Positions 47,238-50,940 of a stretch of 64,000 nt of DNA are shown piece after piece. The notes below the pieces were generated by a model, which worked only from the letters and a program-made list of their open reading frames with translations, ran no database searches and was not told where the DNA came from. This DNA comes from Candidatus Synechococcus calcipolaris G9 (lineage in GTDB: Bacteria > Cyanobacteriota > Cyanobacteriia > Thermosynechococcales > Thermosynechococcaceae). The stretch covers positions 1,512,001 to 1,576,000 of the forward strand of contig NZ_JAKKUT010000002.1 of assembly GCF_029582805.1 (NCBI RefSeq), in the 5' to 3' direction. The position numbers and the translations under genes were made by a program. Within the stretch, counting starts at the first letter, position 1. Each line of letters starts with the position of its first letter.

Positions 47238-47248
47238 CCGAACGTCCT

Positions 47249-47358
47249 AAGTGGCTGGGTTCAATTAACCTAAAAATACTGGTAAAGGCTATCATCTCCC
47301 TGCCTGGGGGCCACACCGCGGTTCCCTTCTCTTACAAGTAATTGCGCCTACCTACTTA
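47249..47358. repeat. Island-flanking direct repeat, left copy (about 110 bp)
   Basis: This stretch and 50825-50940 share their first 26 bases exactly and their last 36 or so exactly, with differences and small gaps between. They point the same way and enclose 3466 bp. A further 356 bp up to the first gene (47715) holds one attC-type core at 47537 and nothing else I can name. The repeat has no reading frame of note. Confidence 0.9.
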
Positions 47359-47536
47359 CGCTAAAAACTTTGCTTGTTAAGGAGTTTGGACAAAAATGAA
47401 GTTTTGTATATGCTATATCTAGCAGTTTTTGATACCTCTATATCCATGTGCTAGAGTGGGTTCTATCCTTATGAGTAGAGAGTTCTGGTTTTCCATTACT
47501 AAATTAGCTAGGCTGCTAATCGCTGTCTAATCAATA

Positions 47537-47543
47537 GTTAGAC
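47537..47543 (+). other. Isolated integron core site at the start of the cassette array
   Basis: GTTAGAC fits the recombination core GTTRRRY. The next six bases repeat those after the first complete attC, so 47537-47549 equals 49250-49262. No matching left arm is seen upstream, so this is either the remains of an attC or an attI-type single site. It marks the left edge of the first cassette. Confidence 0.5.
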
Positions 47544-47714
47544 CGCTGAACTTCTTCTGGGAAGTAATGCCTTAAAATCATCAGTGGGGCAAGCATACAA
47601 AGAAAATTGGAGTGGCATTAGCTTGGTTCTATAAGGCAATCAGCGGCATCGGCTATGATCTGAACAGTCATTTGCTTTTGTAGAGCCATACCGCTAGCTG
47701 AATAAGGGATTACG

Positions 47715-49154
47715 ATGCTGTCGAGAGAAGTAAGACAATTACAAAATACTTGGGATCGAGGTGATTTTCCAAAGCATTTAGAGTGGATTGAAATTGACGG
47801 TATACGTGGATGGACTGGTCAGCGTATAGACTTTAAGTTTCCAATTGTTTGCATTTCGGGCGAGAACGGAATTGGGAAAAGCACTATTCTTCAAGCAGCG
47901 GCATCAGCGTATAAAAATGAAAGACAAGGCTTGAATCCTTACTATGCATCAGACTTTTTCCCAGATACCCCCTGGGAAAAGGTTACTAACGTATTTATTA
48001 GGGTGTCTCTCAGACAAGGAAGCCAGACTATAAACCATGTTGTAAGAAAACCAACCAATCGCTGGAGGGGTAATCCTGAGCGCAGTGAGAGAACAGTTAT
48101 TTTCCTAGATCTTCGACGTACTCAGCCTCTTTATGCAAAATTAGGATACTCACAACTAATTCGAGGTAATCCTGTTGAGGGTGTTGCCAATATTTTCTCT
48201 GATGAAACTCTCCAACGCTTCTCAGCTATTGTTGGCAAATCTTATACATCAGCTAAAAGTGCTACTTTAAAGGACTCGCCAAATAGACCAGTTCCTGTGG
48301 TTGAAGTAGGTTCACTAAGATATTCGGGTTTCCATCAAGGTGCTGGAGAGTCTACTATTGCTGAGCTTCTTGCACTAAACATTCCTAATTACTCACTGGT
48401 TTTGATTGATGAAATAGAAACAAGCCTGCATCCCCGCGCACAACGGCGACTGATGAGAGATTTGGCAAATATTAGTCGAGAAAAGAAAGCACAATTTATT
48501 GTTACTACTCACAGCCCATACATTATGGAGGAGCTACCCCCCGAAGCGCGAGTTCATGTTTTGGGTAACACCGATAACAAACGTGTGGTTTTTGGTGTCT
48601 CTCCAGAGTTTGCTTTGACAAAAATGGATGACGTAGCAGTTCCAGAACTGGAAATTTATGTTGAAGATACACGCGCGAAGATTCTTATTGAAGAGATTGT
48701 TGCAAGTCGAGGGCTAGAATATTTGTCACGAGTGACCATAACTCCCTTTGGAAAAGCTTCTGTTGGAAAAGCATTAGGTTTAATGAAATCTGAAAACAGA
48801 TTTCGTCAAAAAACTTTAGTGGTGCTTGATGGTGATCAAGATCCCTCAACTGGTTGTTTGCAACTACCTGGAAACGATGCTCCCGAAGTTACAGTTTTTT
48901 CAGAGTTGCAAGCAGATGGATGGCAATCAATTGCAGATAAGCTTGCACGTTCTCATTCTGACATGGTGGATCTCTGCAATCGAGTTATGACAGAGCAGAA
49001 TCACCACAACTGGGTTAAGGATATTGCCGATCATCTACTGGTTGGGGGTGATGAGTTATGGCGTGCGATGGTACGGAGATGGTGTGCAATAACTTCCTAT
49101 TCTCAGGGTTGTGATAATCTTTTTGAACATCTGGGAAACGAAATTGACAGTTAG
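47715..49154 (+). CDS. OLD-like ATPase with C-terminal TOPRIM domain (candidate defence nuclease)
   Basis: A 479-residue protein carried by the first cassette. The N-terminal ABC-type ATPase has Walker A GENGIGKST (residues 49-57), Walker B VLIDEIETSLHP with Asp232/Glu233, and TTHSP with His266. The C-terminal part has the TOPRIM acidic residues: Glu317/Asp318 in IYVEDTRAKIL and DGD at 372-374 in LVVLDGDQD. The OLD family, including GajA and phage P2 Old, combines these domains to nick or cut DNA in phage defence. No GajB helicase follows, so a stand-alone OLD type is more likely. AT-rich compared with neighbours. The gene ends 16 bp before an attC. Confidence 0.85.
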   Translation: MLSREVRQLQNTWDRGDFPKHLEWIEIDGIRGWTGQRIDFKFPIVCISGENGIGKSTILQAAASAYKNERQGLNPYYASDFFPDTPWEKVTNVFIRVSLRQGSQTINHVVRKPTNRWRGNPERSERTVIFLDLRRTQPLYAKLGYSQLIRGNPVEGVANIFSDETLQRFSAIVGKSYTSAKSATLKDSPNRPVPVVEVGSLRYSGFHQGAGESTIAELLALNIPNYSLVLIDEIETSLHPRAQRRLMRDLANISREKKAQFIVTTHSPYIMEELPPEARVHVLGNTDNKRVVFGVSPEFALTKMDDVAVPELEIYVEDTRAKILIEEIVASRGLEYLSRVTITPFGKASVGKALGLMKSENRFRQKTLVVLDGDQDPSTGCLQLPGNDAPEVTVFSELQADGWQSIADKLARSHSDMVDLCNRVMTEQNHHNWVKDIADHLLVGGDELWRAMVRRWCAITSYSQGCDNLFEHLGNEIDS

Positions 49155-49170
49155 TACCTGTAAGAACACG

Positions 49171-49256
49171 GTCTAACAATTCGCTTGGAGCGGACTGCTG
49201 AAAGCCGCTGGTGTTGAGTCCGAGCTATTTGCAGCCGCTCAAGCGAACCGTTAGAC
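49171..49256 (+). other. attC-type recombination site 1 (86 bp)
   Basis: R'' is GTCTAAC (49171-49177) and R' is GTTAGAC (49250-49256), exact complements that fit RYYYAAC and GTTRRRY. Inside, TTCGCTTGGAGCGG on the left pairs with CCGCTCAAGCGAA on the right except for one extra G on the left arm, the extrahelical base that directs strand choice in attC folding. It closes the first cassette. Confidence 0.88.
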
Positions 49257-49314
49257 CGCTGAGTTATCAATGGGGACTTTTTTGAATCAGTAAGTCGCCA
49301 GGAGAATTTTTAGT

Positions 49315-49761
49315 ATGGAAACACCAGTCGGCATTCTAAGACGTGTAATCTGGGAAAAGGGCTTTGAAGAAGAGCTATGTATTGGTAGTGGCAGATTCAA
49401 GAAATGTGTAAAGGCGGGTGGTGCTGTACGAATCGTGCAGAAAGATTCAGGTTACTTTGTAGAGTTAGAGCTACTAGGTGCCGTCATTGAATACAGTTTG
49501 ATTAACACTTGCTATCCAGCCTACATCATTGGAATTGCTAGCCTTGAAGTGTGTATCACTGATATTGACTTGAGTGGTTCAACCCTTAAAGGTTTGGGTG
49601 TTTCAATCAAGTTTTGTATTGGTAAATGGGGAATATCTAAATGTTGGGATATTTACAACGGTAAGATTAGATTTTTCTTGGTTAATCTATCTGAGATTAA
49701 CGGAGATTTGTTTGAGCTAGGAGCCTTGGGAGAGAACATTCTGGTCGGGGTAGAAGAGTAG
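49315..49761 (+). CDS. Unrecognised Cys-containing protein of cassette 2
   Basis: A 148-residue protein with CAGGAGAA ahead of the ATG, a good ribosome site. It has no signal or membrane segment. The sequence alternates as beta strands would, contains six cysteines (in EELC, KKC, NTC, EVC, KFC and SKC), and ends ENILVGVEE. I do not recognise a family, and integron cassettes often hold such orphans. It begins 58 bp after attC 1 and is oriented like the cassette genes. Confidence 0.72.
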   Translation: METPVGILRRVIWEKGFEEELCIGSGRFKKCVKAGGAVRIVQKDSGYFVELELLGAVIEYSLINTCYPAYIIGIASLEVCITDIDLSGSTLKGLGVSIKFCIGKWGISKCWDIYNGKIRFFLVNLSEINGDLFELGALGENILVGVEE

Positions 49762-49767
49762 TAAATC

Positions 49768-49797
49768 AATTACCACTTGCTAGGGCAGGTGGTAATT
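49768..49797 (+). terminator. Strong hairpin after cassette-2 gene
   Basis: A 13-bp stem, AATTACCACTTGC against GCAGGTGGTAATT, with one T-G pair and a TAGG loop. It lies 7 bp after the stop codon. There is no T-tract directly after it, so it may stop transcription weakly or protect the message. Confidence 0.6.
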
Positions 49798-49902
49798 AAG
49801 GGCACCTCGAAGAATTGCTCGATCTGCTAAAAATAGAGGCTGAAACCATTGAAATCTCGTTTGAGATCCCCCCAAATTTTGAATTAATCGAGGTACCCTT
49901 AA
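49796..49902. mobile_element. 107-bp MITE-like element
   Basis: The ends are inverted repeats, GGGCACCTCGA and TCGAGGTACCC, with one mismatch and continuing weaker homology. TTAA lies at both outer edges, which looks like a target duplication of the YTAR type made by IS5-group elements. No transposase is encoded. It sits between the hairpin and the half attC of the second cassette. Confidence 0.55.
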
Positions 49903-49927
49903 CTGTATTCTTATTGAAAACCGTGCG

Positions 49928-49950
49928 GTCTAACAATATGATCTGAGCAG
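49928..49950 (+). other. Half attC site (R'' and left arm only)
   Basis: GTCTAAC at 49928-49934 is followed by ATATGATCTGAGCAGGAC, which resembles the left arms of the two full attC sites (GGAGCGGAC). No GTTRRRY partner occurs before the next gene. The right half seems to have been deleted, fusing the second cassette to the third. Confidence 0.65.
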
Positions 49951-50007
49951 GACGAGCAGGGATGTGAGCTAAAATAGAGAAAGCTGGTGCCCATTTTATT
50001 TTCCTGC

Positions 50008-50481
50008 ATGAGTGAAACCGTTTACATCGAAACCAGTATCTTGGGCTATTTGACTGCTCGACCCAGCAGAGATATTGTTGTGGCTGCCAATATTGAGGTT
50101 ACGCGGGAATGGTGGGAAACGCGCCGCATTGCTTTCCAACTCTACTCCTCCCAAGCAGTTGTCAAAGAAACCTCACAGGGAGATACCGAAATCGCATCTC
50201 AACGGCTCGAAATCATTCGCAACCTCGCGTTACTCGATTTGAACCAATCTGTACTTGATTTAGCAGAGCAATTTTTGGAACGCAGTAGCCTTCCCTCAAA
50301 AGCTGATGTTGATGCTGTTCATATTGCAGCCGCAACTGTTCACGGTATGGATTATCTACTCACATGGAATTGTAAGCACATTGCTAATGCTCAGATTCAA
50401 AGAAAACTGGCAGAGATTAGTCTTGATTTGGGATACGAGTTACCGATTCTTTGTACACCCTATGAACTGCTCGGAGGTTAA
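50008..50481 (+). CDS. PIN-domain toxin-like protein of the cassette array
   Basis: A 157-residue protein from the ATG at 50008; the frame also opens at a GTG at 49987. The PIN pattern is VYIETSILGYLTARPS with a Glu in place of the first Asp, then VKETSQGD, SLPSKADVDAVHIAAATVHGMDYLLTWNCKHIAN, cited by KADVDAVHIA and LTWNCKHIAN. This YIETS/TWNCKHIAN variant is a well-known PIN subgroup, so the Glu is not a loss. It should be an RNase. Its stop lies 2 bp before the next gene, implying a toxin-antitoxin module. Confidence 0.82.
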   Translation: MSETVYIETSILGYLTARPSRDIVVAANIEVTREWWETRRIAFQLYSSQAVVKETSQGDTEIASQRLEIIRNLALLDLNQSVLDLAEQFLERSSLPSKADVDAVHIAAATVHGMDYLLTWNCKHIANAQIQRKLAEISLDLGYELPILCTPYELLGG

Positions 50482-50483
50482 TT

Positions 50484-50711
50484 ATGTACCATGATGCAAT
50501 TGTAGAAGAAATTCACCAAATTCGCGAAGAGTATTCACAGTCATTCAACCATAACTTAAAGGCACTTTTCGCTGATCTGCAAAAGCAACAAGCTGAGAGT
50601 GGCAGAAAAGTTGTGAATTTGTCGCGAAAATCCGGTCTAACAACACGTTGGAGCGGACGGGCGAGAGATATTGGTGGGGATGCAAAGGATACTAGCCGCC
50701 GTTCAACTTAG
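50484..50711 (+). CDS. Antitoxin-like partner reading into attC
   Basis: A 75-residue frame starting 2 bp after the PIN gene. The first 48 residues (MYHDAIVEEIHQIREEYSQSF, here cut to MYHDAIVEEIHQIRE, then FADLQKQQAESGRKVVNLSRK) look like the natural helical antitoxin; related PIN partners have this type. The last 25 (GLTTRWSGRARDIGG) are encoded by the attC site itself, from about 50635 on. So the C-terminus is either a cassette artefact or a truncated antitoxin. No DNA-binding motif recognised. Confidence 0.65.
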   Translation: MYHDAIVEEIHQIREEYSQSFNHNLKALFADLQKQQAESGRKVVNLSRKSGLTTRWSGRARDIGGDAKDTSRRST

Positions 50712-50720
50712 CCGTTAGAC
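50635..50720 (+). other. attC-type recombination site 2 (86 bp)
   Basis: R'' is GTCTAAC (50635-50641) and R' is GTTAGAC (50714-50720). The arms GTTGGAGCGG and CCGTTCAAC pair with an unpaired base and some mismatches. Length equals the first site. It ends the last cassette and overlaps the 3' end of the antitoxin-like frame. Confidence 0.85.
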
Positions 50721-50824
50721 CACCACTCTCCTGTTGAGACGTGGAAAAGGTTATTTATGGGTTGTAGTGATTAATCAAACATCAGTTCTTGGCTGAAGCG
50801 TAGCCAGGAGAGGGGTAAGCTGAT

Positions 50825-50940
50825 AAGTGGCTGGGTTCAATTAACCTAAACATGCTGGCAGGGAAAAAGGCGGTAATCTCCCTGGATGGGAGCTACACTG
50901 CGATTCCCTTCTCTTACAAGTAATTGCGCCTACCTACTTA
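50825..50940. repeat. Island-flanking direct repeat, right copy (about 116 bp)
   Basis: Matches 47249-47358 as described there. It ends 11 bp before the aroE stop on the other strand. Without the island, one repeat copy would lie directly between znuB and aroE. Confidence 0.9.

Follow-up and report, generated by a model that had tools for sequence, protein, structure and literature searches.

HEC-04 (Hma-embedded candidate 04, PADLOC PDLC04149; Payne et al. 2024 bioRxiv, as cited in PMC12111858) is described in the citing paper as protecting E. coli from T4 and T5 (PMC12111858), and IbfA, which PADLOC assigns to HEC-04, acts by abortive infection, in which P22-like phage is reduced and host viability is lost with no ATP depletion (PMC12111858). 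Class 1 OLD genes are stand-alone by definition (PMC10568477), and the proteins carry their metal-B acid four residues past the first Glu (TsOLD D381, BpOLD E404, P2 Old E402); YbjD still blocks phage without its TOPRIM domain (PMC13261556). AriB cuts tRNA (PMC12409363), and Cran1, an archaeal OLD protein (class 5) with intact ATPase and TOPRIM sites, has a cell-cycle role (PMC12796447). Since the functions of these relatives differ, the mechanism given below for a new 479-aa protein is one that we infer. Integrons, intI pseudogenes, the duplication of these inside one genome, and integrons in cyanobacteria are all known already (PMC8618304, PMC2426708), and MITE-flanked integrons are on record from Gillings et al., as cited in PMC8618304.

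We analysed a 64,000-nt stretch of the genome of Candidatus Synechococcus calcipolaris G9 (the window, whose positions are used throughout), for which an original prediction, made from the letters alone, had proposed an OLD-like ATPase-TOPRIM gene carried as an integron cassette. The open-reading frame lies where it had been placed, at 47715–49154 on the + strand, and its product is probably a stand-alone effector against phages that joins an ABC ATPase to TOPRIM, a relative of HEC-04 and IbfA, whose gene was captured as a cassette by an IntI integrase that has since been lost. The features of the array are as follows.

47248–47358, + strand: 5' copy of the MITE-like repeat (111 bp), whose terminal inverted repeats TAAGTRG...CAATTA are imperfect
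47359–47537, + strand: attI-like integron platform, probable Pc region, recombination point G47537/T47538, no intI adjoining (seven genome copies)
47538–49250, + strand: single-gene integron cassette 1 (TTAGAC ... G), in which the TTAGAC adjoining attI complements the R'' box GTCTAAC of the cassette's own attC
47715–49154, + strand: ABC ATPase-TOPRIM protein, 479 aa, HEC-04/IbfA-like (ORF list, profiles, alignment, models)
47859–47882, + strand: Walker A, residues 49–56 (GENGIGKS), invariant in 22 homologues except position 53
48408–48413, + strand: Walker B D232/E233, invariant in 22 homologues
48621–49151, + strand: predicted TOPRIM domain and C-terminal helices, residues 303–479 (E317, D372, D374, E391 and H431 invariant)
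49171–49256, + strand: attC of cassette 1, 86 nt, R'' GTCTAAC, R' GTTAGAC (pattern, folding, covariance model)
49251–49985, + strand: cassette 2, with ORF 49315–49761 (148 aa, no family match) and truncated attC 49928–49985
49987–50481, + strand: PIN-domain protein, 164 aa, in cassette 3 (about 49987 to 50714); weak Pfam match, below curated cut-off
50484–50711, + strand: small ORF of cassette 3, 75 aa, running into the attC; possible antitoxin (from position only)
50635–50720, + strand: attC of cassette 3 (pattern, covariance model; weak folding alone)
50721–50758, + strand: 3' segment common to the array at G000:C2:1730119 (locus L058)
50824–50940, + strand: MITE-like repeat, 3' copy, 117 bp

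Homologue alignments begin at residue 2, which makes the ATG at 47715 the likely start of the gene. Pfam matches the frame to AAA_21/AAA_15, and its best PADLOC match is HEC-04 (185.5 bits, 3.6e-55, residues 5–473 against positions 10–485 of the 494 in the model), which is also the best PADLOC model for the IbfA-type plasmid protein (141.9 bits) and for every homologue tested. The second-best model, retron ATPase-Toprim_I-B (87.6 bits, 2.5e-25), scores about 100 bits below HEC-04 and is followed by PtuA and AriA. The closest named relatives are hence HEC-04 and IbfA, defence proteins and not housekeeping ATPases, as the proposed role in phage defence would have it. Identity to IbfA is only 28% (over residues 22–375), and it is likewise only 28% to L038, a protein from a cyanobacterium of the host's own family (genome G009) that scores 603 bits against PADLOC HEC-04, so the function of the 479-aa protein could differ from that of either. 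The gene stands alone: no GajB-type UvrD-like helicase lies near it, the neighbours being cassette ORFs without a helicase match, an ABC permease and aroE. The prediction had said as much, yet its suggestion that this would make the gene an unusual or minimal type does not hold, standing alone being normal for class 1 OLD, HEC-04 and IbfA. A GajA lacking its GajB was rejected, as HEC-04 is a far better match and no helicase is nearby.

Alignment with 22 homologues at 47–58% identity shows an ATPase head of ABC/SMC type (K55, D232/E233, H266), in which Walker A reads G49-E-N-G-x-G-K55-S56, and D232, E233, H266 (H-loop) and G211-E212 of the GAGE signature-like motif are invariant. Further along, E317, D318, D372, D374, E391, R412, H431 and W433 are invariant in the same sequences. 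The motif residues first named (Walker A 49–57, D232/E233, H266, E317 and DGD at 372–374) were well chosen, since D232/E233, H266, E317 and D372/D374 do not vary across these homologues. The metal-A ligands of class 1 OLD proteins (E...DxD) are present as E317, D372 and D374, and the spacing of 55 and 57 residues from E317 to D372 and D374 is that of BpOLD E400/D455/D457 and P2 Old E398/D453/D455 (PMC7049728). The OLD metal-B acid (+4 from the first Glu) is without counterpart: the position is A321 here, and Ala or Ser in 22/22 sequences, for which reason the chemistry may not be OLD's. The VEDxxA form is common to the 479-aa protein, the HEC-04-type L038 and IbfA, as are an LP...PE motif (E391 in the 479-aa protein) and a His near 431, and the sequences suggest that this Glu (E391) and His (H431) may stand in for the OLD metal-B site. 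Promoter-like sites were no commoner than in shuffled sequence.

The whole protein, modelled by AlphaFold2, has a mean pLDDT of 82, and Foldseek places the class 1 OLD nuclease 6p74 first, then retron PtuA and GajA, so that the structural comparison proposed with OLD and GajA returns both among the leading matches. The ATPase half has a fold like the SMC, Rad50 and PtuA heads (Z 15–18); the many SMC/Rad50 heads among its matches are evidence of fold only. Because the ATPase half filled the match list of the whole model, residues 303–479 (177 residues) were modelled alone (pLDDT 92.8). Amongst solved structures this domain is best matched by AriB of PARIS (Z 9.8 over 158 residues) and by OLD TOPRIM domains (Z 8.7–9.5), next by the Pyrococcus protein 2p62 (Z 7.7), GajA and retron Eco8/Eco2, with all other folds at Z ≤5. 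The Foldseek E-values for the domain alone are modest (best 2.7e-3), and the TOPRIM case therefore rests on the agreement among the top matches and on the conserved triad. In these models the C-terminal part folds as TOPRIM, as had been claimed from its motifs.

The gene is a genuine integron cassette. Cassette 1 begins exactly at the crossover of the attI-like site and ends in an attC whose R'' and R' boxes are perfect and whose bottom strand folds at -30.7 kcal/mol (z -7.96 against shuffles), and a second, truncated attC (49928–49985) stands between cassettes 2 and 3. In the window, exact attC patterns matched two sites with the correct spacing and none with a shorter gap. An occurrence of GTTAGACCGCTGG at window 27894 reads as coding sequence and was discounted as a chance match. 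The folding of attC1, the attI junction, the R'' overlap and attC matches throughout the genome together uphold the cassette claim of the original prediction. The sequence at 47359–47537 has seven copies in the genome (of eight match rows, two are the halves of one split copy). The other copies, and the integrase relics, are:

L058 3120–3308: attI copy
L062 5711–5893: attI copy
L072 7658–7846 (-): attI copy
L073 2307–2595: attI copy, split
L074 8356–8536 (-): attI copy
L075 9782–9901 (-): attI copy
L062 5234–5674 (-): intI relic, adjoining the attI copy
L074 8548–8838: intI relic, N-terminal fragment
L073 2048–2266 (-): possible intI relic, shorter, seen by eye

Where three attI copies were aligned, their likeness stops right after AATAGTTA, the integron crossover. 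All seven copies have an attC downstream in the correct orientation, each with a different first cassette, and at six of the seven the R'' box of the first attC is complementary to the six bases that follow the crossover; this overlap rule is the footprint of IntI-mediated insertion. A covariance model (R1) built from eleven attC sites gave 43 genomic matches with E ≤0.5, of which about 37 had E <1e-5, in ~25 loci, and many of the ~40 attC-like sites lie far from any attI copy, scattered over the chromosome. Within the host's family R1 finds attC sites in 21/29 genomes. A search of 28 sampled relatives did not find the attI region. No intact IntI in the genome scores above the TIGR02249 curated cut-off (reached in 22 of 386 sampled cyanobacteria), and only the relics are present, that at L062 matching the N-terminus of an intact IntI of the host's family at 76% identity and continuing, past a large deletion, with the C-terminal box. 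The gene can thus be called portable, as originally suggested, for its past; it is not a portable unit now, with no intact integron integrase and relics only.

The cassettes at the other platforms fit the idea of integrons as stores of defence and stability genes: L058 carries a NACHT NTPase with BrnT/BrnA-like genes, L062 a TIR-domain protein, L072 a DUF4238 protein, an acetyltransferase and MazEF-like genes, L073 VapBC- and MazEF-like pairs, and L074 a series of small cassettes (the toxin-antitoxin names being readings of sequence except where Pfam is cited). DUF4238 figures among listed antiphage systems. At L072 6136–6191 a short attC of 56 nt stands between the cassettes for a 379-aa unknown protein and DUF4238, most attC sites here being 86–88 nt.

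Two of the attI arrays, that in the window and that at C2:1730119 (L058), are flanked by the MITE-like repeat, which has 8 copies of 111–117 bp in the genome. The junction of 5' repeat and attI and the segment preceding the 3' repeat are the same in both arrays, the cassettes different, and both arrays probably derive by copying from a single unit bounded by the repeat; as no target-site duplication was established, transposition of this unit is a suggestion. At L057 3678–5788 a MITE-like repeat stands immediately upstream of an AAA ATPase gene (382 aa) and a 257-aa partner gene; the ATPase has HEC-01A as best PADLOC match (118 bits), and this is another defence-like pair.

In the tree, the 479-aa protein belongs to a clade of 21 sequences (99 SH-aLRT) from Pseudomonadota, Bacillota, Planctomycetota, Acidobacteriota, Thermodesulfobacteriota, Thermomicrobiota and Tectimicrobiota, its nearest members coming from Microbulbifer, Paenibacillus, Rudaea and a planctomycete. 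IbfA and HEC-04 proper (L038) fall outside it, and the exact relations of L038 and L124 to the clade are unsure since both are long branches. Only the host amongst 386 sampled cyanobacterial genomes carries a clade member, and matches of any kind at E 1e-30 occur in 6/386. Horizontal transfer of the gene is the natural reading, probably from a source outside cyanobacteria. The loci of the homologues show no constant partner gene and no recurrent reverse transcriptase neighbour, and some of their shared-neighbour clusters consist of the same genes read in antisense frames. In five loci (L005, L011, L017, L019, L024) the homologue has a divergent transposase upstream, in seven (L005, L010, L011, L012, L017, L019, L024) it has a small convergent protein rich in GGKARAAKLS/ARW motifs just downstream, and phage integrases adjoin homologues in other loci. 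HEC-04-like genes between such a transposase and small protein stand as if they were insertion-sequence passengers. R1 finds no attC near 29 homologues in other genomes, a result that leaves room for integrons there, as this model was built from the host genome and would miss other attC types.

How such a protein would work can be proposed by analogy. Two SMC-like heads would bind ATP and keep the TOPRIM nuclease inactive until an infection signal (a phage protein, DNA ends or a nucleotide change) released it, whereupon the TOPRIM site would cut nucleic acid with metal ions and halt the growth of phage and host alike, as abortive infection; tRNA, the target of PARIS AriB and, as reported, of P2 Old, is as plausible a target as DNA. 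The TOPRIM nuclease need not be the effector, since YbjD blocks phage without it, and a protein in which the ATPase half acts (as an ATP sink or toxic ATPase) and the TOPRIM half only regulates, as reported for YbjD, would be in keeping with a phenotype kept without TOPRIM (PMC13261556) and with the replaced metal-B acid. We judge this unlikely, for E317, D372 and D374 are invariant in 22/22 sequences, which is unexpected if catalysis is dispensable, and IbfA acts without ATP depletion (PMC12111858). That the protein instead serves housekeeping or DNA maintenance as an ATPase-nickase, in the manner of archaeal Cran1 (class 5 OLD), and plays no part in defence seems quite unlikely: Cran1 shows that an OLD-family protein with both sites intact can serve the archaeal cell cycle (PMC12796447), and the ATPase head is as close to SMC/Rad50 heads as to PtuA, yet a clade that is rare in the phylum (1/386 genomes), patchy over many phyla, integron-borne here and beside transposases or integrases elsewhere is unlike a core gene.

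With no intact IntI in the genome, intI relics present and the second cassette ending in a truncated attC, the cassette might be a relic trapped in a dead integron, its expression or function gone; the full-length ORF that keeps every family-invariant residue and the strongly folding attC1 with its perfect R''/R' make this very unlikely. Least probable is an orphan retron effector (type I-B ATPase-TOPRIM) needing a reverse transcriptase and ncRNA, which has the second-best PADLOC score to recommend it; HEC-04 scores ~100 bits higher, no RT match occurs among the neighbouring cassette ORFs and none recurs at the homologues, and the retron assignment was rejected. The preferred reading is of a stand-alone ABC-TOPRIM defence candidate of abortive-infection type, whose gene would have entered the platform by IntI-mediated cassette insertion and been fixed there once the integrase decayed. 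It is quite possible, if short of probable, that an intI-attI platform spread to at least seven chromosomal sites, partly MITE-bounded, that each copy took up different defence or toxin-antitoxin cassettes and that all the integrases decayed afterwards; the outcome would be an immune library scattered and frozen in place, with a new ABC-TOPRIM clade among its contents.

The protein type is already known; what is less common is an attI platform present seven times with no integrase. The analysis places an uncharacterised, multi-phylum, single-gene ABC-TOPRIM clade beside known defence proteins, offers residues for mutation (K55, E317, D372, D374, E391, H431), and describes defence-like cassettes in a cyanobacterial integron with seven attI copies and no integrase, where it can now be asked whether scattered cassettes stay expressed and useful once the integrase is lost.

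Compared with known systems, the locus, with its candidate anti-phage gene in cassette form, resembles the integron defence cassettes of Vibrio and mobile integrons (2025 papers, as cited in PMC12444791), and differs from them in being cyanobacterial, with scattered attI/attC sites and the integrase lost. Gabija GajA also joins an ABC ATPase to TOPRIM, but at >550 aa against 479 aa here, and the sequence match is limited to the ATPase head. PARIS AriA-AriB has the nearest TOPRIM fold (AriB) and an AAA/ABC sensor, encoded in separate AriA and AriB genes and not, as here, in one ORF. Class 1 OLD proteins (P2 Old, Thermus scotoductus OLD 6p74, YbjD) share the stand-alone ABC ATPase with TOPRIM and the metal-A triad spacing, whereas the 479-aa protein has Ala or Ser in place of the metal-B acid at +4 and a final hundred residues that are all helical. 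IbfA of IncI1 plasmids (pUA1135, R64) is likewise a single ATPase-TOPRIM protein on mobile DNA, of the same PADLOC family and with VED and DGD motifs in register, although it is plasmid-borne, 518 aa long and 28% identical. HEC-04 lies inside an Hma system and not in an integron, and L038, a cyanobacterial protein of the HEC-04 core, scores 603 bits where ours scores 185, yet it too is a single gene in which an ABC ATPase is fused to TOPRIM, the model match is full-length, and both show recognisable VEDxxA, DGD, LP-x-PE and His motifs.
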